From positions 1 through 37,090 of the forward strand of contig NZ_JAELTQ010000034.1 of assembly GCF_016428905.1 (NCBI RefSeq): DNA of 37,090 nucleotides, given 5' to 3'. The translations under genes and the position numbers were made by a program. Source of the stretch: Dyella sp. ASV24 (GTDB lineage Bacteria > Pseudomonadota > Gammaproteobacteria > Xanthomonadales > Rhodanobacteraceae). The notes under the pieces were generated by a model, which did no database searches, had not been told where the DNA came from, and worked only from the letters and a program-made list of their open reading frames with translations. Positions 1 through 28,800 of this stretch are shown here, piece after piece (position 1 is the first letter of the stretch; each line of letters opens with the position of its first letter).

Positions 1-1
1 C

Positions 2-427
2 TCGTGCATCGTCGCAGAGATTACCAATACGCCTTGGGGCGAGCGGCACGCCTACGTGTTGCCTGTCGATAGTGCCCACCCACAGGGGCGCGCGCTGGCC
101 TGGGATTTCGACAAGCGGTTTCATGTCTCCCCCTTCATGGCCATGGATTGCCGCTACGACTGGCGATTCACGCCGCCCGCGGATGACCTGCGCGTGCACA
201 TGAAGGTGTACCGGGACGAGGCCTGCCAATTTGACGCGACGCTGGCTATGCGCCGGCGACCTGTCGACCGACGCGCACTCAGTCGCGTGCTCTGGCGCTA
301 TCCACTGATGACGGCCCAGGTGATGGGCGCCATCCATTGGCAGGCGCTCAAACTATGGCTGAAGCGCAACCCGTCTTATGACCACCCCGGCAACTCGCAC
401 TCCTCCACGCTCAGGGAACCCTCATGA
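2..427 (+). CDS. DUF1365 family protein, 5' end outside window
   Basis: The reading frame is open from the first bases of the window, so the N-terminus lies upstream; 141 C-terminal residues are visible. The piece starting '[15 protein letters not shown]' and the later '[17 protein letters not shown]' are typical of DUF1365. These proteins usually sit between an FAD-dependent amine-oxidase-like protein and a cyclopropane-fatty-acid-synthase homologue. Its biochemical role is unknown; family context points to modification of membrane acyl chains. The stop overlaps the start of the next gene as ATGA (424-427), so the two are probably translationally coupled. An internal GTG at 56 is not the true start, because homologous sequence continues upstream of it. 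Confidence 0.9.
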
Positions 428-1722
428 ACGAGATCGTCAAGCCACGCCTGAACGAGGTACCCCAGATACAAGCAGGTGCGCTGGATCGTCTTCTGCGTGG
501 CAAGCTGCTTGATGCCATGCACGGTATTCGCCATGGCAGCTTGATCCTGCACGATGCGTTGGGTCGTATCGAACTCGGCGAACTTGCGGATGCAGCCCTC
601 CCATGGCAGGTGCAGCTTCGCGTCGACGATATGCGCTTCTATCGTGCCGTAGCCCTCAACGGCAGTGTTGGCGCGGGTGAGGCCTATGCGGATGGCTGGT
701 GGCATTGCGACGATCCAGTCGCGTTGGTGCGCTTGCTGGTGCGCAATCGCGAACTGCTCGACCAGATGGAAGGAGGCTTGGCCCGGGTGGGCGGCATGCT
801 TATGCGCGCTTGGCACGCGCTGCGCGACAATACGCGGGCCGGCGCCCGGCGCAACATCGCGGCGCACTACGACCTGGGCAACGCTTTCTTTGCGCTGTTC
901 CTGTCCCCCGACCTGATGTACTCGTCAGCGTTGTGGGCTGGCCATGACGACACGCTAGAGGTCGCGTCGGTGCGGAAACTGGATGCCATCTGCCGCAAGC
1001 TTGATCTCAAGCCCGGCGATCGGGTCGTAGAGATTGGCACCGGCTGGGGTGGGTTTGCGCTGCATGCGGCAAGCCATTACGGCTGCCACGTTACAACCAC
1101 GACGATCTCGCGCGAGCAACATGCCCTGGCTAGCAAGCGCATTGCGGAGGCCGGACTGAACGAGCGGGTCACCTTGTTGCAGAGGGACTACCGCGACCTC
1201 GAAGGAGAATACGACAAGCTGGTGTCCATCGAGATGGTGGAGGCCATCGGCGCACGCTTCCTGCCGGCATACTTCGGGAAGCTCAGTGCCCTGCTCACAC
1301 CCGATGGCATCGGCCTGGTGCAGGCGATCACGATTGAAGATCATCGCTATGCGCAGGCCCTGGCCTCGGTGGATTTCATCAAGCGCCACATTTTTCCGGG
1401 CAGCTTCATCCCCTCCCTGAACGCCTTGCTGGCGGCCAAGACGCAGGCCAGCGATCTCGCATTGGTGCATCAGGAGGATTTTGGGTTGTCCTACGCCCGG
1501 ACGTTGCGCGCCTGGCGGAGCCGGTTCCTGGCGAACTGGGCTGCGGCTCGTTCGCAAGGCTACGACGAGCGTTTTCTGCGCATGTGGGAGTTCTATCTGG
1601 CCTATTGCGAGGGTGGCTTTCTTGAGCGCTCCATCGGGGTATCTCATCTGTTGCTGGCCAAACCGGGTGCACGACCGGGCCCCGCTGGATGGGCCGTGCC
1701 CACGGAGGGGCCGCGGGCATGA
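424..1722 (+). CDS. cyclopropane-fatty-acyl-phospholipid synthase family methyltransferase
   Basis: A 432-residue SAM-dependent methyltransferase of the Cfa family, predicted to methylate the double bond of unsaturated acyl chains in membrane phospholipids. The N-terminal lipid-binding part spans roughly residues 1-140. The SAM-binding motif '[16 protein letters not shown]' is near residue 200, followed by '[11 protein letters not shown]' and the C-terminal '[16 protein letters not shown]' block. Where E. coli Cfa has the 'LLHTIG' motif whose His binds bicarbonate, this protein reads 'LVQAITIED', so that His appears to be absent. This could mean it makes a methyl or methylene product rather than a cyclopropane ring. 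Start and stop both overlap the neighbouring genes. Homologues of this operon belong to RpoE-ChrR regulons, and such a sigma/anti-sigma pair lies downstream at 7095-8386. Confidence 0.92.
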
Positions 1723-2252
1723 TGTTCTGGCTCAATCTGCTGGGGTACCAGTTGGTTTGGTTCCTTTTGGTCAGCGGCGCCGGCGAGGGTCACCTGGTCT
1801 GGCCGCTGCTCGCGGGTGTTCTGTTTGTGGTGAGCCAGCTGGCAACGGCAACGCACGTGAGGCGTGAGATGCGCCTACTGATCACGGCGTTGCTGATCGG
1901 AGCGGTGGTCGACGGCATGGCTGCCGCTACGGGTTGGCTGCGCTATGCCTCGCCATCCCCGGCGTGCCCTCCGGGCGGTGCGCCCGTGTGGATCCTGATG
2001 CTCTGGGCCTGCTTTGCCACCACCATCAATCGCTCCTTGTCTGTGCTGCGCGAACGCCGGTGGCTAGGGGCGTTGCTGGGTGGGCTGGGTGCGCCTATGG
2101 CGTATCTCGCGGCAGCACGGGGGTGGGGCGCGGTGCAGCTCTCACTATGGCCGGGCGCGGCCTGGATCGCCGCGAGTTGGGCGCTGGCCCTGCCGTGGCT
2201 GCTGTTCGTCAATCGAGACGACACCCGTCATGACCGCGCGAGGCTCGCATGA
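1719..2252 (+). CDS. DUF2878 integral membrane protein
   Basis: A 177-residue protein with about five hydrophobic segments ('FWLNLLGYQLVWFLLVSG', 'LLAGVLFVVSQLATA', 'LLITALLIGAVVDG', 'VWILMLWACFATTIN', 'WIAASWALALPWLLFV'), matching DUF2878. An earlier in-frame ATG exists at 1689. I place the start at 1719 because it forms the same ATGA overlap (1719-1722) used at the other junctions of this operon and begins directly with the first membrane segment. The function is not known. It is found with DUF1365, Cfa and DUF1295 genes, so a role in handling or modifying membrane lipids in the inner membrane is inferred from context only. Confidence 0.88.
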   Translation: MMFWLNLLGYQLVWFLLVSGAGEGHLVWPLLAGVLFVVSQLATATHVRREMRLLITALLIGAVVDGMAAATGWLRYASPSPACPPGGAPVWILMLWACFATTINRSLSVLRERRWLGALLGGLGAPMAYLAAARGWGAVQLSLWPGAAWIAASWALALPWLLFVNRDDTRHDRARLA

Positions 2253-3046
2253 GCGTCGAATGGCAACTCCTTTGGCTGGCCCTGATCATGGGGGCTGTCA
2301 TGACGCTAGGATGGGATTGGCAGCGTCGTCACCACAATGCCGGCGTGGTTGACGTGCTGTGGGCCGCAGGGCTTGGCATCGCAGCCGCGCTGATGGCAGC
2401 GACGGGCCGTGGCGCGACGTTGCCGCGGATCTTGCTCGCTCTGTTGGGTTGTATCTGGTCATGGCGGCTGGCGGCGCACCTGTGGCATCGCGTGAGGGGT
2501 GAGGCTGAGGATGGCCGCTATCGTCATCTTCGCGCGCATTGGAATGGCAGTCAGCTGAAGTTCTTTTTTTTCTTCCAGGCGCAGGCTTTGCTGGTTGTGC
2601 TGTTCGCGCTTCCTTTTGTCGCCGTCGCTGCCAACCCTACGGCTACCGCGGGCATCTGGCCGGTAGTCGGTGTCCTGATCTGGTTGGTCAGCGTGGCGAT
2701 GGAGGCACGTGCCGACCGGCAACTTGCCGTGTTCCGTGCCAATCCCGCGCACCAGGGCAAGACCTGCCGCACGGGACTGTGGCGTTACTCGCGACATCCG
2801 AACTACTTCTTTGAGTGGCTGCACTGGTTCAGCTACGTCGCGTTGGCCGTCGGCTCGCCCATGGGGTGGCTCGCCTGGTCGGGGCCGCTCGTCATGTACG
2901 TGTTTCTGCGCTGGATCAGCGGTGTCCCCTATACGGAGGCACAGGCTTTGCGGACGCGCGGCGAGGATTACCGCGCGTATCAGCAAAGTACCTCCATGCT
3001 GTTTCCATGGTTTCCCCGCACCGGCATCTCCAGGAGTTCCCCATGA
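2249..3046 (+). CDS. DUF1295 / steroid 5-alpha-reductase-like membrane protein
   Basis: A 265-residue multi-spanning protein. The C-terminal signature 'GLWRYSRHPNYFFEW' followed by 'FLRWISGVPYTEAQAL' is characteristic of DUF1295 in the steroid 5-alpha-reductase / isoprenylcysteine methyltransferase superfamily. Members are thought to be NADPH-dependent reductases or membrane transferases; the substrate here is unknown. It overlaps DUF2878 by ATGA at 2249-2252 and the next methyltransferase by ATGA at 3043-3046. With two methyltransferases in the same operon, reduction of a modified acyl chain is a reasonable but unproven guess. Confidence 0.9.
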   Translation: MSVEWQLLWLALIMGAVMTLGWDWQRRHHNAGVVDVLWAAGLGIAAALMAATGRGATLPRILLALLGCIWSWRLAAHLWHRVRGEAEDGRYRHLRAHWNGSQLKFFFFFQAQALLVVLFALPFVAVAANPTATAGIWPVVGVLIWLVSVAMEARADRQLAVFRANPAHQGKTCRTGLWRYSRHPNYFFEWLHWFSYVALAVGSPMGWLAWSGPLVMYVFLRWISGVPYTEAQALRTRGEDYRAYQQSTSMLFPWFPRTGISRSSP

Positions 3047-4131
3047 ACGCCACGCTCGCTCCCGCCACTGAACTGAGCACTGACCAGCCCGGTCCCGGCC
3101 TTCTCGGTCTGGCCGAGCGCGGGTTTATTCCCGATGTCCTGTTGCGTGCAGGCATTCGCCACCTTTGCGCCCAGCGACTGTCCACCTGCGAGGAGGGTGG
3201 CGTCCAGGCGTGCCAGGAACGCCATGAGCGGCTGATCAGTGTGCTTCGCCACGGCCCGGTGGCCATCCATACCGATACCGCCAACGCCCAACACTACGAA
3301 TTACCAACCGCGTTCTTCCAGCATTGCCTGGGGCCGCGCTTGAAGTACTCCGCCTGCTACTTCAGTGAAGCCACCCCATCGCTCGAGCAGGCGGAGCTGG
3401 CCATGCTGGAGCTCTATGCGCAGCGGGCGCAATTGATTGACGGTCAGGACGTGCTCGAACTCGGTTGCGGCTGGGGTTCACTCACGTTATGGATGGCAGG
3501 GCGATATCCCGGGTCGCGCATCACGGCCGTGTCCAACTCGCATTCGCAACGGGCCCACATCATGGCGCAATGCGAAAAAAGGGGGCTGCGCAATGTCCAG
3601 GTCATCACCTGCGACATCAATGCGCTCGATCTGCCTGGCGCAAGCTACGACCGCTGTGTATCGGTCGAAATGTTCGAACATGTGCGTAATCACGAGCTAT
3701 TGATGGCGCGCATCGCGGGATGGCTTCGCCCGGGTGGGCGACTATTCGTGCACATCTTCGCCCATCGCCATGCAGCCTATCCGTTCGAAACAGATGGCGA
3801 CGACAACTGGATGGGGCGTCACTTCTTCACCGGAGGCATGATGCCCGCCGCCGATACCTTGCTGTGGTTCCAGCGGGATCTTCACCTGGAGCGCCAGTGG
3901 CTCGTCGATGGCACCCACTACCAGCGCACCGCGAATGCCTGGCTGGCGCGCCAGGATGAACATCGCGCGCCCGTGTTGGCTTTGTTGCGTCAGACCTACG
4001 GCAGCGAAGCGTTGGCACGACTGTGGTTCCAGCGCTGGCGCATGTTCTGGATGGCCTGCGCTGAGCTCTTCGGATACGCCGGTGGCCAGGAATGGCTCGT
4101 GGCCCACTACCGATTCGTGCGCCATTCTTGA
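3043..4131 (+). CDS. SAM-dependent methyltransferase, Cfa superfamily, coclaurine N-methyltransferase-like
   Basis: A 362-residue methyltransferase. The start at 3043 is chosen because it makes an ATGA overlap with the preceding stop and has 'caggag' upstream; an in-frame ATG at 2815 would overlap DUF1295 by over 200 bases. SAM motif I is 'VLELGCGWGSLTLWMA'. The C-terminal half ('GDDNWMGRHFFTGGMMP', 'WLVDGTHYQRTANAWL', 'AELFGYAGGQEWLVAHY') closely follows the pattern of plant (S)-coclaurine N-methyltransferases ('GDDDWMTRYFFTGGTMP', 'NGKHYAQTSEEWL', 'AELFGYNNGEEWMVAHF' as I recall them). Bacterial members are usually annotated as cyclopropane-fatty-acyl-phospholipid synthase family. Whether the substrate is a lipid or an amine cannot be told from sequence. 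Confidence 0.9.
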   Translation: MNATLAPATELSTDQPGPGLLGLAERGFIPDVLLRAGIRHLCAQRLSTCEEGGVQACQERHERLISVLRHGPVAIHTDTANAQHYELPTAFFQHCLGPRLKYSACYFSEATPSLEQAELAMLELYAQRAQLIDGQDVLELGCGWGSLTLWMAGRYPGSRITAVSNSHSQRAHIMAQCEKRGLRNVQVITCDINALDLPGASYDRCVSVEMFEHVRNHELLMARIAGWLRPGGRLFVHIFAHRHAAYPFETDGDDNWMGRHFFTGGMMPAADTLLWFQRDLHLERQWLVDGTHYQRTANAWLARQDEHRAPVLALLRQTYGSEALARLWFQRWRMFWMACAELFGYAGGQEWLVAHYRFVRHS

Positions 4132-4145
4132 AGGAGGTCCTTCTC

Positions 4146-4679
4146 ATGCATCGACTTGTCGAGAGCTTGGCTGCCATCCTTTTGGCCGTATTGCCGCTTG
4201 CCGGCTGCGCCTCTTCGTCGGGGTCTTTCCCGATAGCTCCAGTAGCGCATGTGGACGTCCCGCGCTTCATGGGTGACTGGTATGTCATTGCGGCCATCCC
4301 AACGCGGTTCGAACGAAACGCTTATGGCGCCGTGGAGTCGTATAGGCTCCAACCGGACGGCCGCGTGCAAACCACGTTTCGCTATCGCGCCGGCGCCATG
4401 GATGGCGAACTCAAGACCATGCACGCCACGGGCTTCGTTCGAGACAACACCGGCAATGCCGTGTGGGGCATGCAATTCGTCTGGCCCATCAAAGCGGAAT
4501 ACATCATCGCGTGGCTGGATCCGGGTTACCAATCAGTCATCATCGCGCGCAACAAGCGCGACTACGTCTGGATTATGGCGCGGACGCCGACCCTTCCTCG
4601 TCCGCAATACGACCTTCTGGTCGAGCGTGTCTCGGCCATGGGTTATGACACCCGACAGCTGCGAAGGGTACCTCAATGA
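4146..4679 (+). CDS. lipocalin family lipoprotein (Blc-like)
   Basis: A 177-residue outer-membrane-type lipoprotein. It begins with a signal peptide ending in the lipobox 'PLAGC' (Cys at residue 21). The lipocalin signature 'VDVPRFMGDWYVIAAIPTRF' follows, with later blocks 'FVWPIKAEYIIAWLDPGYQ' and 'YVWIMARTP' as in bacterial Blc. A strong Shine-Dalgarno (aaggagg, about 4132-4138) precedes the ATG at 4146. It is the last intact gene of the 5' operon, separated by only 14 bases from the methyltransferase. Blc-type lipocalins bind lysophospholipids or fatty acids, which fits an operon that modifies membrane lipids. A second lipocalin lies at 6268-6813. Confidence 0.92.
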   Translation: MHRLVESLAAILLAVLPLAGCASSSGSFPIAPVAHVDVPRFMGDWYVIAAIPTRFERNAYGAVESYRLQPDGRVQTTFRYRAGAMDGELKTMHATGFVRDNTGNAVWGMQFVWPIKAEYIIAWLDPGYQSVIIARNKRDYVWIMARTPTLPRPQYDLLVERVSAMGYDTRQLRRVPQ

Positions 4680-4836
4680 TGCGGGCCAATTCATACCGCG
4701 GTTGATCGACGATGCGGCCAAGGCTTCTTACTGCTGGACCGCTTCGCGCTGCTGCTCGCCGTGGTCGGGTGTTGCTGTGAGCTGACGTTTGGCAGTGTCA
4801 GCGCGCTTCGCGGTCAGGTCGCGCCGCCGAATCCCC

Positions 4837-5070
4837 TCGCGCGGTAGTGTGAGCGCGCCTTCGCTCACACAGACGTCTTTGGCCTCCAGTATTGTGTCCA
4901 AGGAAAAGTTACGCGAGGCGGTCATAACGGCACACCCCGCGCGACGTTTCGGCACGCCGTACGATGAGGTGTACCTGGCGGCGTTCCTGTTGTCGCCACG
5001 ATGCGGCTGGGTGACTGGCCAAGTGCCAGGTGTCGATGGCGGGACCCGCGTCATAACCACCCGCCAATGA
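4837..5070 (+). pseudogene. C-terminal remnant of a short-chain dehydrogenase/reductase
   Basis: The plus-strand translation reads 'SAPSLTQTSLASSIVSKEKL', then 'AHPARRFGTPYDEVYLAAFL' and 'WVTGQVPGVDGG', the usual C-terminal third of a short-chain dehydrogenase. The Rossmann N-terminus with TGxxxGxG and the Tyr-x3-Lys catalytic pair is missing from the 160 bases between the lipocalin stop and this fragment. This is therefore a deletion remnant, not a gene. An SDR commonly accompanies the DUF1365/Cfa/DUF1295 operons, so it was probably an original member. A 9-bp hairpin at 4847-4870 lies at its 5' end. Confidence 0.75.
4847..4870. repeat. 9-bp perfect inverted repeat (hairpin)
   Basis: gtgtgagcg at 4847-4855 and cgctcacac at 4862-4870 form a perfect stem with a six-base loop. 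No T-run follows, so it is not a clear terminator. It overlaps the 5' edge of the dehydrogenase remnant. Confidence 0.5.
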
Positions 5071-5358
5071 CACCACCGCTTAACGACGCGCAGGCGCCTT
5101 CACCAAGCCATGGAGACGGAGAGGGAAGGCGGCAACGGTGCAATCCACGTTCAAGCCCTGACGCGCTGGCGTGCTGCCATCTTTGGCCGCGTTTCCACGA
5201 CAGAGCGAATACGCAGGCATCCACTCCTTGCCAAATATGCATCTACAAACTCGCTTGCAACGTATAGCTATCATCGTGCCGAGACGACCATCATGCGGGT
5301 GACTAGTGCGGCCTCCTGTTCTGCGGGCAAACGGGCGCTTTATTTCTGGAGTGGCATC

Positions 5359-6081
5359 ATGGATCAAAAGGTGGATTTGTTGCCGACGTCTCGAGATGAG
5401 CAGGGCGAGCCATCGACTTCTCAGCGCATTCGAAGCCGAATCCTTGGATCAGGCCGCCGTTTTCACGCGAATGACAATATCGCTTCCTTCTTGAGGGAAG
5501 GAGAGCTTGCGCTCCTTCAGCAAGAAGTGGCGGAGAAAGTGCGCGCGGTTCTGGAGTCCTTGGTGATTGATGTCGTCAACGACCACAACTCTCACGAGAC
5601 CGCAGAACGGCTCGCCAAGATGTATCTCCAGGAAGTATTCGCAGGGCGCTACGAAGCCATGCCTGCGGTGACGGAATTCCCAAACATCGAGCAGCTCACC
5701 GAACTGATGGTGGTGGGGCCTTTGCGTGTTCGCAGTGCTTGCTCCCATCATTTTTGTCCGATCATGGGGCGGATCTGGATCGGCGTGCTTCCGGCAAGAA
5801 CCTCAAATTTAATCGGACTCTCCAAATACAGTCGATTAGTTCAGTGGATCATGTCCCGTCCTCAGATTCAGGAAGAAGCAGTCGTCCAGGTGTGCAATGT
5901 GCTGGAAGATCGCCTGAAGCCAGAGGGGGTGGCAGTGGTTATGGAAGCTGACCACTATTGCATGCATTGGCGAGGCGTAAAGGACGACGAATCCCGCATG
6001 GTCAATAGCGTGATGCGCGGCGCCTTCTTGAAAGATGCATCGTTGAGGTCTGAGTTTCTTTCGCTATTGCCTGGGCGCTAG
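5359..6081 (+). CDS. folE: GTP cyclohydrolase I (FolE)
   Basis: A 240-residue enzyme that converts GTP to 7,8-dihydroneopterin triphosphate, the first step of tetrahydrofolate synthesis, in the cytoplasm. The core motifs are visible: 'VRSACSHHFCPIMGRIWIG' holding the first zinc Cys and His, 'LIGLSKYSRLVQWIMSRPQ', and 'ADHYCMHWRGVKD' holding the third zinc ligand. The usual Cys-Glu-His-His is Cys-Ser-His-His here. The ATG at 5359 with 'ctggag' 8 bases upstream is preferred. The frame is open further upstream but that part has no FolE character. Standing next to a folate-binding photolyase-type gene and a ChrR sigma system, it may be a stress-specific paralogue feeding folate antenna or repair needs rather than the housekeeping copy. 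Confidence 0.93.
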   Translation: MDQKVDLLPTSRDEQGEPSTSQRIRSRILGSGRRFHANDNIASFLREGELALLQQEVAEKVRAVLESLVIDVVNDHNSHETAERLAKMYLQEVFAGRYEAMPAVTEFPNIEQLTELMVVGPLRVRSACSHHFCPIMGRIWIGVLPARTSNLIGLSKYSRLVQWIMSRPQIQEEAVVQVCNVLEDRLKPEGVAVVMEADHYCMHWRGVKDDESRMVNSVMRGAFLKDASLRSEFLSLLPGR

Positions 6082-6267
6082 CGCGCAGCATGTGGCCGCT
6101 CTCCCTCACAGGTGGCTTGGTAATTCTTGAGATGAGCAACAGAGCGATCGAAGACCGACGATTCGCAGATATCGCTTCTGAAGGTCTTCGTTGCTTCTGG
6201 TGCGAGGGGGGCGTACAAACTCAACCCGGGAAGTTCTCCAGCCCGGGATTCATGTTTTATGCAAACG

Positions 6268-6813
6268 TCAGCGCAACGGTGCGTCCACGCGCAACTCGCC
6301 CAGCGCGTAGCCGCGTAGAGTCGCACGCGACCGAATGGCTTCAAATTGTGCACGGGTCATGTCGGGTGATCGCGAAAGTATCCATAGATACCGGCGACTG
6401 GGACTACCTACCACCGCCCACTGGTAGCCCGGATCGATCTCAACGACCCAGTAGTCGGCCCATGCCCACGGCAGCCAACTGAGGCAATCGGGAGCAAAGC
6501 GGACTTGAAGCGCACCCTCTGGACCGGGGCGGACCGTTCTCGCGACACCGATCGCCGTGTCGAGCGAACCGTCGCGGGTCCGGCAAGCATTGCGGACCCG
6601 AATTTGCCCGTCTTCGGTCGCCGTATATTCGGCGGTGACGTCGCTGACGCATTGCCGTTGAAACACCAGCGGCAGGTGAGCGATTTCATGCCACTGTCCC
6701 ATGTACCGACCTAGATCCAGGCGGGCTACCGGCTGATTGGGAAGGGGTTGGGGGTGCGCAGCATGTGCCGCCAACACCATGGCTGCCGTAGCCACCTGAA
6801 AGCATCGTTTCAT
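6268..6813 (-). CDS. exported lipocalin family protein
   Basis: A 181-residue protein with a cleavable signal peptide ('MKRCFQVATAAMVLAAHAAH') and no lipobox cysteine, so probably periplasmic or secreted. Lipocalin signatures: 'LDLGRYMGQWHEIAHLPLVF' (Gly-x-Trp motif), 'YWVVEIDPGYQWAVVG' and 'RYLWILSRSPDM'. The ATG at 6813 is chosen because it starts the signal peptide; a GTG at 6852 would add 13 polar residues. It faces away from the sigma factor gene, so the 281-bp gap 6814-7094 may hold promoters for both. It is only distantly like the lipocalin at 4146; the two may bind different lipids or deliver and retrieve the same one. Confidence 0.9.
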   Translation of the reverse strand: MKRCFQVATAAMVLAAHAAHPQPLPNQPVARLDLGRYMGQWHEIAHLPLVFQRQCVSDVTAEYTATEDGQIRVRNACRTRDGSLDTAIGVARTVRPGPEGALQVRFAPDCLSWLPWAWADYWVVEIDPGYQWAVVGSPSRRYLWILSRSPDMTRAQFEAIRSRATLRGYALGELRVDAPLR

Positions 6814-7094
6814 GGGATTCGTACCTGCGGAATGTCGTTTGGTTCTACGCACTCACCGTGCGGTTAGATGCAGGCTGTGTCCAGCTAGGCTCCAGGGATC
6901 GAGGATCCGAACGAAGGTGGGGGTGCATCCAAACACCCGCAGCCAGCGTATAGGCCACATGATCCGAATTGTGCCCATGTCATGAGCGTCAGTCTGGTGC
7001 CCGCTGGCGCTGACGGCTGCCTTTCCTTCCCCCCTGGGGTAGCTGGTGGCGCCAGCGGGCATCGCCGGTTTCCAACGGCAGGCCTTGTCTGGCT
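6814..7094. promoter_or_regulatory. divergent intergenic region between lipocalin and sigma factor
   Basis: No coding character is seen on either strand. It must hold the promoter of the ECF sigma factor operon and probably that of the exported lipocalin. TGATCC occurs at 6960-6965, resembling the -35 element I associate with RpoE-ChrR promoters, but I could not place a convincing -10 at a proper distance. Confidence 0.4.
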
Positions 7095-7730
7095 ATGATG
7101 ACGAGCCATCCACAGCCCACCAAGGTTAGGCCCCTAGAGGCCGTGCGCCGCGTGACTGAGCCATCCAGTCAAACCGTCGAGGACGCGCGCTACTGGTCCG
7201 CGCAAGTAGCTGCAGTCGCTGCCAGACAGGACGTGGATTGCTTTATGCGGATCTACGACTACTACGCGCCGCGCTTGCTCCGCTATTTGCTTGGCTTAAA
7301 CGTATCGCCTGGCCAGGCTGAAGAGCTCGTCCAAGAGTCGCTGCTGCGCTTATGGCGTCGCGCGGGGCAGTTCGATCCGGCGCGAGCTAGCGTATCCACG
7401 TGGCTCTTCCGGATTGCTCGCAACCTTTATCTGGACAGCGCCCGTGGGGAACCCCACTGGATCGACGTGCAGGACGGGCTCGAATGGCTGGACCGATGCG
7501 AAGCAGAAAGTGAAGGCACCAGCACGGAGGCCTTCGCCGATCACGCCAGGCTCGCGAGTGCGATCGAGCGATTGCCAGCCGTGCAAGCGCGCCTGGTTCG
7601 TATGTCATACCTTGAATCCAAAAGCCACAGCGAAATCGCCCAGGAATTGGGCATGCCGCTGGGTTCAGTGAAATCCAACCTGCGCCGCGCTTTCGCCAAA
7701 CTTCAGGCTGGATTGAGATCCGCCCCATGA
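7095..7730 (+). CDS. rpoE: ECF RNA polymerase sigma factor, RpoE of the RpoE-ChrR type
   Basis: A 211-residue ECF sigma factor. Region 2 is 'CFMRIYDYYAPRLLRYLL' to 'EELVQESLLRLWRRAGQFD' and 'SVSTWLFRIARNLYLDSAR' (about residues 45-120). Region 4 is 'AIERLPAVQARLVRMSYLES' to 'HSEIAQELGMPLGSVKSNLR' (about 155-205). It is followed with an ATGA overlap (7727-7730) by a ChrR-type anti-sigma factor. This arrangement defines the group known from Rhodobacter sphaeroides RpoE, which answers singlet oxygen. Typical targets there are its own operon, a photolyase and cfa-type lipid genes, all represented here within 9.5 kb. A second ATG at 7098 is an equally possible start. Confidence 0.95.
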   Translation: MMTSHPQPTKVRPLEAVRRVTEPSSQTVEDARYWSAQVAAVAARQDVDCFMRIYDYYAPRLLRYLLGLNVSPGQAEELVQESLLRLWRRAGQFDPARASVSTWLFRIARNLYLDSARGEPHWIDVQDGLEWLDRCEAESEGTSTEAFADHARLASAIERLPAVQARLVRMSYLESKSHSEIAQELGMPLGSVKSNLRRAFAKLQAGLRSAP

Positions 7731-8386
7731 AACCTCACCATCATCTCGATAGCAGCACCTTGATCGGCTATTCGGCAGGTTCGCTGCCCCATGCTTTTCG
7801 CGCCGTGGTGTCAGCCCATTTGAGCATTTGCGAGTATTGCCGCGCGCAGATGATGGATGCTGACCGGATTGGAGGGCAGCTGATCAGTCAACAGGAGGGC
7901 GCAATCTTGCCAAGCGGCGCGCGGAACATGATGCTGAAGCGCCTGGCGGAATCACCGACTGCATCGTCGGCGCACCATCAAGTGGCTCCCCGCGTTCACG
8001 ATCCTGATCAGCTGCCGGAGCCGCTTTGGCCGTACTTTGGGCAGACCTACGGTGGGCTGCGGTGGCGGACCATCGGGCCCGGCGTGCACCATATCCGGTC
8101 ACGCGTGGTGTGCGACGGCCACCTCATGCTTCTGCGAATCGCACCAGGACGAAGTGTTCCGATGCATAGTCATGGAGGCAACGAGCTGACCATGATCCTT
8201 CAGGGTGCCTATGACGATTCTTTGGGGCACTTCGCACCGGGTGACGTCGCCGACCTCGATTGTGACGTGGAGCATCAGCCGGTGACATCACCCGGTGTGC
8301 CTTGCGTATGCGTCGCCGCCACGGATCTGCCGCTGCGCTTCTCTGGCTGGCTTGCCCGCACTCTCCAGCCGTTCTTCAAGATGTAG
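7727..8386 (+). CDS. chrR: ChrR-type zinc/cupin anti-sigma factor
   Basis: A 219-residue anti-sigma factor that should hold the preceding sigma factor inactive until singlet oxygen or a related oxidant appears. The N-terminal zinc anti-sigma domain has His6, His31, Cys35 and Cys38 ('HLSICEYC'), the same positions as the zinc ligands of R. sphaeroides ChrR. The C-terminal cupin (about residues 110-205) shows His147-x-His149-x3-Glu153 and His183, the same spacing as the second metal site of ChrR (141, 143, 147, 177), shifted by six. All ligands are intact, so the sensor is predicted functional. It is translationally coupled to the sigma factor and 22 bases upstream of the photolyase-type gene. 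Confidence 0.95.
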   Translation: MKPHHHLDSSTLIGYSAGSLPHAFRAVVSAHLSICEYCRAQMMDADRIGGQLISQQEGAILPSGARNMMLKRLAESPTASSAHHQVAPRVHDPDQLPEPLWPYFGQTYGGLRWRTIGPGVHHIRSRVVCDGHLMLLRIAPGRSVPMHSHGGNELTMILQGAYDDSLGHFAPGDVADLDCDVEHQPVTSPGVPCVCVAATDLPLRFSGWLARTLQPFFKM

Positions 8387-8408
8387 CGGACGTCCAGCCT
8401 CACCTCGT

Positions 8409-9515
8409 ATGACGACGATACGTTTAGTTCTTGGTGATCAGCTCAACCCCTTTCATACCTGGTATGACCATGTTCGCCAGGACGTTGTGTACGTAATGAT
8501 GGAGGTGCGCCAGGAGACCGATTACGTTCTCCACCATGCGCAAAAGATCATTGCCATCTTCGCTGCGATGCGGCGCTTTGCGGCCAACCTGCGCAGTGAT
8601 GGGCATCGCGTCCACTATCTGACCATCGATGCGACAGACAACCAGGCCTCGTTGACCGCCAACCTGGATGATCTGATCGCGCTCTACCATGCGGATCGGT
8701 TCGAGTATCAGGCACCTGACGAATGGCGCCTTGACCAGCAGTTGCGGAGCTACGGCGAGCAGCTGTCCATAGCCTGCGTGATGATCGATAGCGATCACTT
8801 CTATACCACGCGCGAAGAAGTACGCCAGCATTTTGGCGGACGAGAACACTGGATGATGGAGTCGTTCTATCGCGCCATGCGCCGAAAGCATGGCGTGCTG
8901 ATGGACGACAAGGGCCGCCCGGTCGGTGGCACCTGGAACTATGATCACGACAATCGCGCGGCATGGCGTGGTATTCCAGATGAGCCGCTCGATCGTCGGC
9001 CCCATAACGACCACAGTGAGTTGTGGCAGACCATCCAGCGTAGCGGGGTAGCGAGCTTTGGCGAGCCAGGCGCTGCCGACTTTCGATGGCCCATCGATCG
9101 CACCGAGGCGTTGCAGCAGCTCGATCGCTTTGTGGAGGAGGCACTGCCCCACTTTGGCCCTTTTCAGGATGCGATGAGCAGCCAGGCTTCTCGCCTGTTC
9201 CACTCGCTTCTCTCGTTTGCACTCAACACCAAGATGCTTTTGCCCCGCGAAGTCGTTGACCGTGCGGAAGCGGCTTGGCGCCAGGGCAATGCACCCCTTG
9301 CTTCGATCGAAGGGTTCATTCGGCAGATCCTCGGCTGGCGCGAGTATGTGCGTGGGGTCTACTGGGCGCGGATGCCCGGGTACGACCGATTGAATAACCT
9401 TGACCACAACGCTGACTTGCCCGCTTGGTTCTGGCATGGCCGGACCCGCATGAATTGCATGGCGCAGTCCGTCGGGCAATCGCTGCGACACGCCCACGCC
9501 CCGTCTTTGGCTTGA
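8409..9515 (+). pseudogene. bacterial cryptochrome/photolyase (PhrB-like), C-terminally truncated
   Basis: 368 residues beginning 'MTTIRLVLGDQLNPFHTWYD', the start of the deoxyribodipyrimidine photolyase-related (FeS-BCP/CryPro) family, whose members run to about 500 residues. The antenna and linker parts and the beginning of the FAD domain ('LLSFALNTKMLLPREVVDRA', 'GFIRQILGWREYVRGVYW', 'TRMNCMAQSVGQSLRHAHA') are present. The sequence then stops at 9513-9515. About 120-140 residues are lost, including three of the four Cys that bind the 4Fe-4S cluster; the Cys of 'RMNC' would be the first. No continuation is found in other frames downstream. A different 40-codon open stretch ('DPKHGPDAEEAIRRALRERV') in another frame ends at 9636 and may be the other side of a deletion. 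The product is probably inactive. Confidence 0.85.
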
Positions 9516-21754: not shown

Positions 21755-22207
21755 ATGTCCACTCATGATTCCAACACTTCTCGCGTTCCTGGCAAGAACA
21801 TCGTCGAGACAGCAGCCGCCAACGGCTCCTTCCATACGCTTAGCAAGGCTCTCGAAGCCGCCGGGCTCACCAGCGTGCTGAAAGGCACGGGCCCTTACAC
21901 GGTGTTTGCACCGACGGATGCGGCGTTCAAAAAGCTCCCGACGGGCACGCTGGAAAACTGGCTGAAGCCAGAAAACAAGGCGGAGTTGATCTCCGTACTA
22001 AAGTACCACGTGCTACCGGGCCGGGCATCGGTCGTCGATATCGGGAAACTGACCGCGCCGAAGATGCTGCAGGGCCAGACTGCAGCAATCACGAAGGACG
22101 GTGACAAGCTCAGCATCGGCGGCGCCGCCATCACGGGGCCGGACATCGCCTCGAGCAACGGCATCATCCATGCGATCGATGCGGTAATTGTGCCCACGAA
22201 GCACTAA
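21755..22207 (+). CDS. fasciclin (FAS1) domain protein
   Basis: A 150-residue protein consisting of one FAS1 domain. The H1 motif 'YTVFAPTDAAFKKLP' is near residue 48, followed by the 'LKYHVLPG' segment. The H2 motif 'NGIIHAIDAVIVP' is at the C-terminus. FAS1 domains mediate adhesion and are usually exported. This ORF begins with a polar stretch ('MSTHDSNTSRVPGKNIVETA') and has no signal peptide or upstream in-frame extension, so export by the Sec route is not evident. It is complete and isolated, with an aagg ribosome binding site. Confidence 0.93.
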   Translation: MSTHDSNTSRVPGKNIVETAAANGSFHTLSKALEAAGLTSVLKGTGPYTVFAPTDAAFKKLPTGTLENWLKPENKAELISVLKYHVLPGRASVVDIGKLTAPKMLQGQTAAITKDGDKLSIGGAAITGPDIASSNGIIHAIDAVIVPTKH

Positions 22208-22897: not shown

Positions 22898-25800
22898 GTG
22901 AAGACCGGCAATCCATTCGCTTTGATCAAATTCCGCCAATTGAGGGCTATTCTTCGTCGAAATGCCGTTGTGCGCCGAGGCCTCGAACGTGAGCCCGCCC
23001 TTCGCTCCGAGCTATTCAGCGCCGACCAGATGGACCTCTATGGTGCGGCGTTGGCCAGCAGGCATCGTTCGAGTGAGCGCGCTGAAGCGAACTCGCTACT
23101 CGTACGCTTGGCGAGTAACAAAGCCGTTCTCGCACATTCGTGTGAAATGCTCACTCTGGCCATTCATGGAGGCCACCGTGTTACGCCGGCCGCAGAATGG
23201 CTACTCGATAATTACTATCTGATCGAAGAGCAAGTGCGCATAGCCCAAAGGCACTTGCCCAAAGGCTATAGTCGGGAACTACCGCGCCTTCTCAATGGGT
23301 CGTCAGCCGGTCTTCCCCGCGTCTACGACATCGCTCTGGAAACCATCTCGCACGGTGACGGCAGGGTGGATAATGAGAGTCTCAGGCGTTTCGTGGCCTC
23401 ATACCAGCGAGTGACGCCGCTCACGCTGGGCGAGCTGTGGGCCATCCCCATCATGCTTCGACTAGCACTGATCGAGAACCTTCGTCGTGTCGCCGCACGC
23501 GTCATGATCGATTGGAACGATCGCACGCTGGCGGCCCAATGGGCTGGCCGCATGACCGACATCGCAGAAAGGGATCCAAAGAGCGTAGTGCTCATCGTGG
23601 CCGACATGGCGCGTTCGGACCCGCCTATGGTCAGTCCATTCATCGCAGAGATGACACGACAGCTTCAAGGTCGGGGGGCGGCGCTGGCGATGCCCTTGAA
23701 CTGGCTTGAGCAACGGCTCGTCGAGTCCGGCCAGAGCATCGATCGACTCGTGCAGATGGAGGCTCAGCAGCAGGCGGCCAACCAGGTATCCATTGGTAAC
23801 AGCATCGGCAGTTTGCGCATGTTGTCAGCCACCGATTGGCGGGGGTTCGTTGAGAGCATGAGCATTGTCGAGCACGTTCTGCGTGAGGACCCGGCAAGCG
23901 TCTATCCAGACATGGATTTTGCTACCCGTGACCAGTATCGCCACATTGTCGAACGGTTGGCCAGACATGGTGCACGCTCCGAAGAAGATGTGGCGCGAGC
24001 GGCCATCGCGTTGGCGAGGAATGGTCATTCACACGGCCTGAGCAGTGCGGCTCAGTCCCATGTCGGCTTTTACCTGATCGACGAAGGTCTGGCGGCATTG
24101 GAGCGAAGCGTTGCCTTCAGGCCATCTTGTGCTGAGCTTTGGAGACGGCTCATTTCACGCATTCCCCTGGAAATCTATCTCGGACTCATCGTGCTCGCCA
24201 CGGGGCTACTCACCTGGCCTCTGCTGGCGATCCTTGAGCTTCATCATGTTCGTGAAGGGCTAATCGTACTCATGGCTCTGCCTATGGTTCTGATGGCCAG
24301 CCAATTGGCAATCAGCTTCACGAATTGGCTCGAGACGATAGTTGTGTCACCGCGGATGCTTCCGCGCATGGATTACTCGGGTGGTCTACCCGATGTTATG
24401 CGCTCGCTGGTGGTTGTTCCCGCGATGATATCCAGTCGCCAAGACGTGGAGGACCTTGTCGAAAGTTTGGAGGTCCGTTTTCTCGCCAATCGCGACGAAT
24501 GTCTGCACTTTGGCCTGTTGTCCGATTTCACGGATGCCGAAGAAGAGGTGTTGGAGCAGGATGCGCCCATGCTCCTACTAGCACGTCAGTGCATCGATGC
24601 GCTCAACCAGCGCTACGCCGATGCGAAATACGACCGCTTCTTCCTGTTCCATCGGCCGAGGCGCTGGAATTCGGTTGATAAGCTATGGATGGGTTACGAG
24701 CGGAAGCGTGGAAAGCTGGCCGAGCTCAACGCGCTGCTGCGCGGTGCCGGCCAGGATCGGTTTCTGATGATCGTTGGGCGCACCGATATCTTGAGCGAGG
24801 TCAGGTATGTCATCACGCTGGACACCGATACCCAGCTTCCCAGGGATTCGGCACGTCAGTTCGTCGGCGCCATGGCGCATCCGCTCAATCGCCCGGTCTA
24901 TAACTCCGCTAAACAGCGAGTGACCTCCGGATACGCGATCCTGCAACCACGTGTGGGTATCAGCTTGTCGAGTTCGACTCGTTCGCCCTATGCACGGTTA
25001 TATGGCAGCGACGCAGGCATCGATCCGTATACGCAGGCGGTTTCGGATGTCTATCAGGATCTTTTTCATGAAGGTTCATTCATCGGTAAGGGCATCTACG
25101 ATGTACAAGCCTTCGAGCTGGCGATGGGGGACCAGTTTCCCGAGAATTCCATACTCAGCCACGATCTCCTCGAAGGGTGTTTGGGGCGGTCTGGCCTTAT
25201 CACGGATGTGCAGCTCTACGAGGAGTACCCATCGATCTATAGCGTTGATGTGAAACGCCGTCATCGGTGGATTCGGGGCGACTGGCAACTTCTTCCATGG
25301 CTACTGACGCTTATCCCAACCAAGGACGGAGCGAAACGGCGGAATCCCCTTTCTTCGCTTTCGTGCTGGAAGATCCTGGACAACATGCGTCGGAGTCTCG
25401 TGCCATCGGCAATGATGTCGCTGCTTCTGTTCGGATGGATAGTGATACCGAAAGTCGCGTGGTGGACCGTCGCCGTACTGGCATTTGCATTTGTCCCACC
25501 GCTGCTCTCCTCCTTGCATGAATTGCTCAAGATGCAACGCGATGTGTTGTTTAATCAGTACGTGCGCGCGGCATTGCGGTCGATAGGCGGTCATTTCCTG
25601 CGTGCGCTGCTCTTTCTTGCATGGCTTCCGCATGAGGCGCATTACAGCCTGGATGCTGTAATACGGACCTTGTGGCGGTTAGGGGTAAGCCGGCGCCGAT
25701 TGCTTCAATGGAACGTATCCAGCGAGGTTGATAGAACTGCTACCAACGATCTCCGTGGGCTGTACCGATCGATGTGGATAGCGCCATCGCTTTCCGTGTT

Positions 25801-28800
25801 TGTTTTGGGGTTTCTCGTGCTCCGGAGCCCCGTGGCGCTTTGTGGGGCAAGCGCCCTCTTGCTGCTATGGATCGTCTCGCCGGCGATGGCGTGGTGGATA
25901 AGTAAGCCGCCCTCACGTGCAGTATTTGAGCCGACCCTTGAGGAAAGGAAACTTTTGCGAAGGCTTGCACGTAAGACCTGGGCCTTCTTTGAGACTCATG
26001 TCGGGCCGGAGGACAACTGGCTGCCTCCTGACAACATCCAGGAGCAACCTTCGCTCGTCATTGCCCACCGTACGTCGCCCACCAACATGGGTTTGGCTTT
26101 GCTGGCAAATCTTTCTGCCTACGATATGGGTTATCTGACGGTGGGTCGATTGCTCGAACTCACGGGTCGCGCCTTGGATACCATGCAGTCCATGGAGCGC
26201 TATCGCGGCCATTTTTATAATTGGTACGACACGATCTCGCTGAAGCCTCTGCAACCGCACTACGTCTCATCAGTGGACAGCGGCAATCTCGCCGGACATT
26301 TGCTGACTCTTCGCGCTGGTTTGCTGGCGCTGCCGGATGATCGTCTGTTTGACGTCCACTTTCTGGATGGCTTGATCGATACCATCGACATTCTGCGCGA
26401 CTTAGCCATCGCTGCGAATGCGGATGTCTCCCTGATGGATGATCTGCGCGCTGAAGTACAAACTGCGCGTCAGTCGCTGCCCAGGTCTCCGGCCGAAGGG
26501 GATGTTTTCGCGCGGCGGATGCTCAATGGAAGCGAAGCAATTTGTAGGTCGCTGGAAGGTGTTTCTGGCGATGAAATCGACTTTTGGCAGCGGGCGTTAC
26601 GGGTGCAGTGCCGTGATGCCTGTAACTATCTTGGCCGTTTTAGCAGCGCCGTGTCACTTGATGCCCAAGGGGCGGAGTGTGGCATTCAAACCCTGCGTCA
26701 GCTCGCCTCCAGCGATTCGGATGTGAGTCGTGTCGAGGCTCCTTCGCCAGTTGGCGGCGCACAACGGAGTGCCTCGGAGTTGATATTCGCCATTGCCAAG
26801 CTGGCGAAACAGGTTGGCGACCTAGCTGTGATGGATTATGGATTTCTGTATGACACGCGCCGGCATCTTCTGGCGATCGGCTACAACGTGGAAGAGTACC
26901 GGAAGGATGCGAGCTTCTACGACCTATTGGCGTCAGAAGCCAGGCTCGCTAGTTTTGTGGCGATTGCGCAGGAGCAAATTCCGCAGGAAAGCTGGTTCAC
27001 CCTGGGGCGGCTGCTAACCACAACAGCAGGTGAGCCGGTGCTGCTGTCATGGACAGGGTCGATGTTCGAGTACCTGATGCCCATGTTGGTGATGCCGAGC
27101 TACGAAGGGACTTTGCTTGACCAGACGTGTCGCGCGGCCGTGGCCAGACAGATCGAATATGGCCACCAGCTTGGACTTCCCTGGGGCGTATCCGAATCGG
27201 GATACAACGTACGGGACACGCATTTCAACTATCAGTATCGGGCGTTTGGCGTTCCTTGGCTCGGTCTCAAGCGCGGCTTAGAAGAGGAGATGGTCATCGC
27301 ACCCTATGCGACCGTACTGGCGCTGATGGTGGCACCCCAGGCGGCTTGCGCGAACCTTCAACGGCTTATGAGTCAAGGAATGGAAGGGCGCTTCGGTTTA
27401 TACGAGGCGGTCGATTACACCCCGGCACGCTTGCCACGAGGTCAAAGTGCGGCGGTGATTCGCTCATTCATGGCTCACCATCAGGGTATGAGCCTGTTGG
27501 CAATCAACTACCTGCTTCGAGACCGGCCGATGCAGGCGCGCTTTGGGTCCGACCCAAGCTTCCAGGCAACCCTGCTTCTGTTGCAGGAACGTGTCCCAAG
27601 AGCGGCTGTGGAATACCTGCACACGGCCGGATTTCCATTGGTGAATACGTTGCCATCCACGCCAGAAGCCACTCTGCGCGTCTTCACTAAACCGGACCGA
27701 TCCCAGCCAGCAGTGCAATTACTCTCCAATGGCCGATATCACGTCATGGTGAGCAGTGCGGGTGGCGGGTACAGTCGCCTTCGCGATATGGCGGTCACCC
27801 GATGGCGTGAAGACATTAGCTGCGACAACTGGGGGATATTTTGCTATCTGCGCGATGTCGCCAGTGGTGCATTCTGGTCGGGGTCGTATCAGCCAACGCT
27901 GCGAACACCAGAGAACTACGAAGCGATCTTCTCCGATGCCCGCGCTGAATTTCGCGTGCGCGAGCGGGATTTCGACGCCCATACCGAGATCGTAGTGTCG
28001 CCCGAGGACGATATCGAACTTCGTCGTACGCGCATCACCAATCATGGTCGATCCCACCGGACCATCGAGGTAACCACCTATGCCGAAGTAGTGCTAGCGA
28101 CCGCGATATCCGACTCGCTGCATCCGGCCTTCAGCAACCTGTTTGTGCAGACCGAGCTCATTCGACCGTTACAGGCTATCGTGTGTACGCGACGACCGCG
28201 CTCCGTCGGCGAAAAGGTGCCATGGATGTGCCATCTGATGGCTGTGCACGACGCCGATATTGACGATATATCGTACGAGACTGATCGATCCCGTTTCATC
28301 GGTCGCGGACGCAGCTTGGCAGATCCGGTCGTGATGGATGATGCGGAAGATGTTCCGATCCGCCTTTCGGATAGCGAGGGATCAGTGCTTGACCCCATCG
28401 TGGCTATTCGCTGCCGGATCACACTTGATCCCGGGCAATCGGCGGTGGTGGACATCGTCACGGGAGTTGGTGAAAGCCGCGATGCCACGCTTCACCTCAT
28501 CGAGAAGTATCGGGATCGACATCTGGCGGATCGCGTCTTCGATCTGGCATGGACGCATAGTCAGGTACTACTTCGACAACTCAATGCCAGCCTATCCGAT
28601 GCGCAACTGTACGAGCACATGGCCACATCGATTATTTATGCCAGCTCGTCTTTGCGCTCGGATCCGGTCATTCTACGGGCCAATCGCCGACCTCAATCGG
28701 GCTTGTGGGGGCAGGCCATCTCCGGCGATTTACCCATAGTTCTGTTGCATATTGCCGATCTGGCCAGTATCGAACTGGCCCGCCAACTCGTGCAGGCGCA

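Follow-up and report, generated by a model that had tools for sequence, protein, structure and literature searches.

A Likely RpoE-ChrR Photo-oxidative Stress Regulon with an Extended Furan-Fatty-Acid Operon in Dyella sp. ASV24

Introduction

The RpoE regulon of Rhodobacter sphaeroides contains 15 genes, among them rpoE, chrR, RSP_2144 (which is UfaM), phrA, RSP_1091-1087, rpoHII, the fasciclin gene RSP_1409, and folE2 (PMC7074977). Within the associated furan-fatty-acid pathway, UfaO contains DUF1365 and FufM yields a dimethyl furan acid (PMC7380195). Here we describe a related locus from Dyella sp. ASV24, at one end of a 37,090-nt stretch (the window) that is the whole of contig C270 in a genome of 5,625,695 bases and 635 contigs. 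It carries an extracytoplasmic function (ECF) sigma gene with chrR, folE, two lipocalin genes, and a lipid-enzyme operon with the gene families DUF1365, DUF2878, and DUF1295. A note made earlier from the letters of the window alone, hereafter the original prediction, had proposed a RpoE-ChrR regulon here, and its statement that in Rhodobacter this pair controls photolyase and cfa-like genes and is linked to furan fatty acids is borne out by the two papers cited above. We consider it likely that an ECF11-type RpoE-ChrR pair here governs a photo-oxidative stress regulon, with an extended furan-fatty-acid operon as its principal output. The switch is ordinary; three partner genes without an assigned bacterial role look like a genuine part of the response.

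Several other described systems bear on the locus. In Vibrio cholerae, where ChrR and a sigma factor likewise exert control, blue light induces a cfa gene (PMC5241685), and VC1123, which holds DUF2878, is annotated within the PhrR regulon (PMC12971978). An Aeromonas operon of the order NTF2-SDR-FAD-DUF1365-cfa-DUF2878 places DUF2878 beside DUF1365 and cfa (PMC10012899). Under Pseudomonas LitR/PplR, light induces phrB, an SDR gene, an FAD oxidoreductase gene, ufaM, and folE (PMC9758184). The 104 SAK1-dependent singlet-oxygen genes of Chlamydomonas include CFA1, CFA2, a DUF1365 gene, a DUF1295 gene, and the fasciclin gene FAS2 (PMC4067076, where table 9 gives CFA2 as a coclaurine N-methyltransferase), and Cfa-annotated genes of this alga have already been likened to the Rhodobacter furan response (PMC8491031).

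Results and Discussion

A RpoE-ChrR Pair and an Operon Split across Two Contigs

The rpoE gene (7095-7730, plus strand) encodes an ECF sigma factor with Sigma70_r2 and r4_2 domains, and among solved structures its best match in PDB is R. sphaeroides RpoE (2q1z, 103.5 bits, the next match scoring 67.4). The product of chrR (7727-8386, plus), a zinc anti-sigma factor, reaches 174 bits against TIGR02451 and passes the family cut-off of 124.5; against the stricter NCBIfam equivalog NF051881 it scores 152.8 bits, under the cut-off of 300. Its profile matches R. sphaeroides ChrR (2z2s) across its 203 residues. The protein has H6, H31, C35, C38, H147, H149, E153, and H183, plus C193 and C195 near the C-terminus, and all ten are unchanged across the 19 ChrRs aligned. 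We take the first eight to be the zinc ligands of the R. sphaeroides protein, in which case the original prediction was right that every metal ligand is in place. On the family score, the ligands, and the nearest structures, we assign the two genes as an ECF11-type RpoE-ChrR pair.

The 5' edge of the window falls within the DUF1365 gene, ufaO, whose 3' part (2-427, plus) matches positions 112-233 of the 235 in the PF07103 profile; a full-length relative scores 287 bits in the family scan. A genome-wide search with the promoter motif described below located a second contig, C68, whose reverse complement is identical to the first 127 nt of the window, an exact overlap consistent with an assembly break. 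The start of C68 carries, on its minus strand, genes for a fatty acid desaturase (319 residues) and a flavin amine-oxidase protein (426 residues), followed by the 5' part of the DUF1365 gene; the flavoprotein, a PF01593 member encoded directly 5' of ufaO, is the ufaD candidate. Because of this overlap, we take the operon to run from the desaturase through lipocalin 1, in the order desaturase-ufaD-ufaO(DUF1365)-cfa1-DUF2878-DUF1295-cfa2-lipocalin 1 over both contigs. The original prediction described a six-gene operon; at least two more genes, those for the desaturase and the UfaD-type flavoenzyme, lie on C68.

Directly 3' of ufaO, cfa1 (424-1722, plus; CMAS, 263.7 bits) encodes a candidate UfaM-type fatty acyl methyltransferase. 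The DUF2878 membrane protein (1689-2252, plus; PF11086, 112.9 bits) has a helical AlphaFold2 (AF2) model with a predicted local distance difference test score (pLDDT) of 89, and the DUF1295 gene (2249-3046, plus) encodes a steroid-reductase-like membrane protein (PF06966, 240 bits; PF02544, 33.9 bits with a cut-off of 22.6). The operon ends with cfa2 (3043-4131, plus), which encodes a coclaurine-N-methyltransferase-like protein and candidate furan-ring methylase, and with lipocalin 1 (4146-4679, plus; PF08212, 140.9 bits), a Blc-type protein. The starts of cfa2 (3043), the lipocalins (4146 and, on the minus strand, 6813), and the photolyase gene (8409) were taken from reading frames. Elsewhere in the window, a second fatty-acid desaturase-like open reading frame (ORF) at 14359-15594 matches an ISL3 transposase domain in its C-terminal part.

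A Shared Promoter Motif

One ECF-type motif, GCATCYR-N15-CGTA, is common to the regions upstream of the operon, folE, lipocalin 2, the sigma gene, and a fasciclin gene. Before the operon it takes the exact form GCATC-N17-CGTAT, ∼28 nt 5' of the desaturase on C68. The same exact form precedes the GTP cyclohydrolase I gene folE (5359-6081, plus; PF01227, 147.6 bits, under the NCBIfam FolE cut-offs) at 5239-5265 (plus) and the sigma gene at 6925-6951 (plus), and a form with one mismatch, GCATC-N17-CGTAG, precedes lipocalin 2 at 6845-6871 (minus). The fasciclin gene (PF02469; contig C110, L072 1086-1741) has the motif 39 nt upstream. The whole genome contains 14 matches, compared with 4 for a reversed-pattern control; five of the 14 are intergenic and correctly oriented, namely those of the four island units and the fasciclin gene, and nine lie within ORFs. 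We infer that the sigma factor reads these promoters. The original prediction had proposed a search for such a motif as a check on a single RpoE-ChrR regulon, and the outcome favors one regulon, since a single motif marks all four island units.

The motif recurs in relatives. Of the 18 ChrR loci fetched, 16 have it 5' of sigma; it also lies 5' of folE in both fetched loci that have folE, and at two of the four fetched loci with a lipocalin 2 at least 55% identical. The strict motif GCATCCR-N15-CGTAT, searched in 8 of the 18 ChrR-containing relatives, gave 26 matches as against 3 for the control. Fifteen of the 26 precede sigma, desaturase, or folE, 2 precede genes whose products appear to resemble the C110 fasciclin, 7 are within ORFs, and 2 precede other genes. 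At locus L177 in genome G055, a gene for a secreted protein that appears to resemble DUF4331 starts 233 nt past a strict motif. A second fasciclin-domain gene in the window (21755-22207) is without an upstream motif. The −35 element of R. sphaeroides is TGATC. When the V. cholerae promoter TGATC-N16-18-CGTAW was tried on the window, it gave 12 matches at one mismatch or fewer, none of them before an island gene; the sole exact match, at 542-569, is inside cfa1.

Conservation and Control in Relatives

From a scan of titled genomes we considered the best 80 of 567 cfa2 relatives, with flanks that did not exceed 10 kb and were frequently shorter; the nearest come from Luteibacter, Rhodanobacter, Frateuria, Dyella, and other Lysobacterales. 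Among these 80 loci, cfa1 is found at 75, DUF1295 at 73, ufaO at 72, ufaD at 70, DUF2878 at 63, a desaturase at 61, and a lipocalin-1-like gene at 29 (some non-adjacent). The operon is within the fetched stretch (at most 20 kb) at 12 of 18 ChrR loci. In the genus of the window, chrR occurs in 5 of 20 genomes, the same five that have cfa2 (at least 75% identity), which points to an association beyond chance. Membrane-lipid remodeling, as first proposed for the locus, draws support from this conservation and from the identity of the DUF1365 protein with UfaO (PMC7380195).

Control of the operon appears more varied than its content. Among the 58 loci with a usable region upstream of the desaturase, 9 have a ChrR-type sigma (at least 50% identity), 19 another ECF sigma (30-36%), and 30 no sigma in view. 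The desaturase has the motif upstream at 9/9, 18/19, and 6/30 of these, respectively, with opposite-strand controls of 4, 0, and 2; at the loci with a ChrR-type sigma, some opposite-strand matches are probably promoters of divergent sigma genes. All four scanned anti-sigmas of the other ECF type are RskA_C. We regard it as a real possibility, if one we would not quite back, that some relatives place the operon under a different ECF sigma, which is paired with an RskA-type anti-sigma and reads the same promoter, so that ChrR here may be a replacement rather than ancestral. Against it, the best candidate motif upstream of those ECF genes has at least two mismatches at 19 of 20 loci, and the absence of ChrR was judged from the operon flanks. 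At L118 (2467-3827) and similar loci, the operon adjoins the ECF sigma and RskA-type anti-sigma instead of ChrR, and the desaturase keeps the motif. A protein without a Pfam family is encoded 5' of the host operon at L068 (2786-3790, minus), and the product of L113 1236-2024, 5' of a Xanthomonas ECF sigma, resembles it by eye.

Cfa2, DUF1295, and DUF2878

The original prediction counted two Cfa-superfamily methyltransferases; both do belong to the CMAS family, but the second lies much closer to coclaurine N-methyltransferase than it does to Cfa. Its profile scores 313 bits against the coclaurine enzyme 6gkv (18-358) and 115 bits against the nearest Cfa, 6bqc (82-357), so that over its full length cfa2 is not closest to a true Cfa. 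The cfa1 product falls under the cut-offs of the listed Cfa models, and its equation with UfaM is put forward as a candidate assignment. The two proteins are 32% identical across 230 columns; FufM (RPA0924) and UfaM are 26% identical (PMC7380195). Cfa2 has E-M-F-E-H at the site of E-L-F-E-H in the plant enzyme, and cfa1 has E-M-V-E-A there. We assume that the plant residues are catalytic. Cfa has a bicarbonate site, and a Glu/His base in its place would suit ring-proton removal in C-methylation.

Of 229 genomes sampled from the class, 41 encode DUF2878. In the best 30 DUF2878 loci (our own included), 28 have cfa1, cfa2, DUF1295, or ufaO within 1.5 kb; 16 of the 30 have neither ufaO nor cfa1 at that distance, and 14 of these 16 have cfa2 or DUF1295 there. 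Such loci, along with the profile fit of cfa2 to plant N-methyltransferases, argue for a second alternative, that cfa2-DUF2878-DUF1295 is an independent module (acting for example in N-methylation of membrane amines, or on another lipid) that was recruited beside a furan operon. We find this rather improbable. A ufaO gene lies within the flanks of 72 of the best 80 cfa2 loci; DUF1365 is encoded elsewhere in 10 of the 16 DUF2878-containing genomes just mentioned (a stop codon interrupts one copy), compared with 2 of 14 that lack DUF2878 (Fisher p 0.011, a value that ignores phylogeny); and in six of those ten genomes both genes are on one contig, 3-5 kb apart.

The third alternative concerns DUF1295, which could be a methyltransferase of the isoprenylcysteine methyltransferase (ICMT) type dependent on S-adenosylmethionine, rather than an NADPH reductase. 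ICMT 4a2n is its best PDB sequence match (E 0.0012, compared with 0.28 for SRD5A2), and the NCBIfam isoprenylcysteine methyltransferase model matches weakly (22.7 bits, cut-off 160). The protein is nonetheless over the Pfam Steroid_dh cut-off and has no Pfam ICMT match at E 0.001, and a Foldseek search with its model (pLDDT 90) gives sterol C14 reductase and SRD5A as top matches (E 0.004-0.034, Foldseek probability 1.0), placing sterol C14 reductase and two SRD5A structures over ICMT, all with E >0.001. By Pfam profile and model, DUF1295 appears to resemble steroid and sterol reductases, and we doubt the ICMT assignment. The fold search with DUF2878 returned no significant PDB match (38 matches, best E 2.3).

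Proposed Explanation

The reading we prefer is the RpoE-ChrR photo-oxidative stress regulon with the extended operon as its main output, furan fatty acids being the probable product. Our own analysis covers the gene content, the ChrR ligands, the promoter motifs, the conservation of the operon, and the sequence and fold relations of cfa2 and DUF1295; the ChrR mechanism and the UfaM/UfaD/UfaO/FufM chemistry are published for relatives. Light-made singlet oxygen or organic peroxides would inactivate ChrR and free the sigma factor, which would then act at the GCATCYR-N15-CGTA promoters of its own gene (and, behind it, chrR and the truncated photolyase gene), folE, lipocalin 2, the fasciclin gene, and the operon. 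The predicted roles within the operon are as follows: the desaturase would supply cis-unsaturated chains; cfa1 in the UfaM role would act with UfaD and UfaO to form a methyl-furan fatty acid on phospholipids; cfa2 may methylate the furan further in a FufM-like role; DUF1295 with DUF2878 might reduce an oxidized (enedione-type) furan lipid or intermediate; and the lipocalins may retain damaged lipids within the envelope.

Several observations weigh against this reading. Only 9 of the best 80 cfa2 loci have chrR within their flanks, no motif lies 5' of the desaturase at 24 of the 30 loci without a sigma in view, and one of the eight relatives searched with the strict motif, G061, has its sole match within an ORF and none at an island gene. 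Plant N-methyltransferases top the structure-match list of cfa2. The association of DUF1365 with DUF2878 carries p-values that ignore phylogeny, and DUF1365 was not found in 6 of the 16 DUF2878-containing genomes tested, five of which have cfa2 beside DUF2878, so the module need not act on furan acids. The algal matches are by annotation name alone, most table rows carry no family name, and the part of table 5 covered names no lipocalin, photolyase, or DUF2878 (PMC4067076). Finally, the −35 element here is GCATC, as opposed to the TGATC reported for V. cholerae (PMC5241685); this contrast concerns promoter specificity and not a feature that defines the proteins. That these genes became neighbors by chance or horizontal transfer and lack common control, as the presence of the island in only 5 of the 20 genomes from its genus might suggest, we consider very improbable, given the identically oriented motif that precedes four units here and recurs in relatives, and the functional match with the Rhodobacter regulon (PMC7074977).

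Beyond the furan operon itself, we tentatively propose, while judging it unlikely, that the regulon includes a second furan-lipid stage in which the coclaurine-type methyltransferase adds a second ring methyl and a DUF1295/DUF2878 membrane reductase detoxifies or recycles the reactive enedione that forms once singlet oxygen has been trapped by a furan lipid. This stage would be conserved in proteobacteria under two ECF types and one promoter and have a counterpart within the singlet-oxygen response of green algae, which would imply a lipid role for coclaurine-type enzymes. The proposal offers an operon-level prediction for DUF1295 and DUF2878, Pfam families without assigned function, and likewise for the coclaurine-type methyltransferases of bacteria. 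It also foretells in which proteobacteria furan fatty acids are made, and which promoter drives their synthesis, and supplies candidates for handling the reactive carbonyls that arise after furan lipids trap singlet oxygen. In the open-licence PMC literature found, no role is assigned to this gene set. The original description of DUF2878, DUF1295, and the second methyltransferase as without an assigned role in the Rhodobacter response appears to hold. Elsewhere, DUF2878 is annotated in the V. cholerae PhrR regulon (PMC12971978) and in the ufa-type operon of Aeromonas (PMC10012899), and singlet oxygen induces Chlamydomonas genes annotated as DUF1295 and coclaurine N-methyltransferase (PMC4067076). 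Overall, the observation made at the outset is partly confirmed, being right in outline with promoter evidence stronger than stated there, and its interpretation is partly supported.

Photolyase, Lipocalins, and Neighboring Genes

The gene content described earlier (ECF sigma, ChrR, folE, two Lipocalin_2 proteins, DUF1365, DUF2878, and DUF1295) is present, except that the photolyase-related gene (DPRP; 8409-9515, plus; PF04244) is truncated at its C-terminus. It aligns with four intact relatives of 509-510 residues to residue ∼365 of ∼510; the homology stops near nt 9499, and the bases beyond continue it in no frame. A search of the genome with the 145-residue C-terminal part from a relative found no match, an empty answer that proves nothing by itself, and the 49-residue frame beyond the break matched no Pfam family. 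This gene is the sole DPRP match of the genome, which has one other DNA-photolyase gene, on C355. Two of four same-genus relatives have an intact phr followed by a convergent folE, and the other two have neither within the fetched stretch; here folE is located between the two lipocalins and carries its own promoter motif.

Read by eye, the leader of lipocalin 1 makes it a lipoprotein (lipobox LAGC), and lipocalin 2 (6268-6813, minus; PF08212, 164.3 bits) has a plain Sec-type leader without a lipobox. With these leaders, and with lipocalin-1-like genes within the flanks at 29 of the 80 cfa2 loci, the export path suggested for the lipocalins is not upheld. A role in holding lipids would fit better than export, because a chloroplast lipocalin shields thylakoid lipids against peroxidation (PMC3813922). 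The window further contains a very large ORF of 2,907 residues (22898-31621), whose product appears to resemble a cyclic glucan synthase.

Comparison with Known Systems

The locus shares with R. sphaeroides a sigma factor and ChrR with its ligands, photolyase, GTP cyclohydrolase, fasciclin, UfaD, UfaO, and a Cfa-type methylase (PMC7074977, PMC7380195). It differs in having folE for folE2, a GCATC −35 element, and a truncated photolyase, and in its additional desaturase, DUF2878, DUF1295, coclaurine-type methyltransferase, and lipocalins. Since membership in the RpoE regulon is already established for genes of photolyase, GTP cyclohydrolase, fasciclin, and the ufa set, the regulon itself is not new. 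As in the UfaM-UfaD-UfaO-FufM pathway, the DUF1365 protein is UfaO, adjoined by an amine-oxidase flavoenzyme and a Cfa-type methylase; here, however, these are in a single operon with the desaturase and more genes, and cfa1 and cfa2 are candidates for UfaM and FufM, respectively.

ChrR/sigma control is shared with Vibrio, and DUF2878 beside DUF1365 and cfa with Aeromonas, whereas V. cholerae uses a MerR regulator and the portions of the Vibrio and Aeromonas accounts considered describe no DUF1295, coclaurine-type methyltransferase, or lipocalin. Pseudomonas differs in its LitR repressor, LOV photoreceptor, and sigma-70-like promoter, and ChrR is unmentioned in the part of that account considered (PMC9758184). 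By family name, four of the five Chlamydomonas genes listed in the Introduction match the operon and the fifth, fasciclin, matches the regulon; there the regulator is eukaryotic (PMC4067076). The core of the regulon is already known, and it is the proposed second-stage module that merits testing; the Chlamydomonas parallel makes the question testable in both kingdoms.

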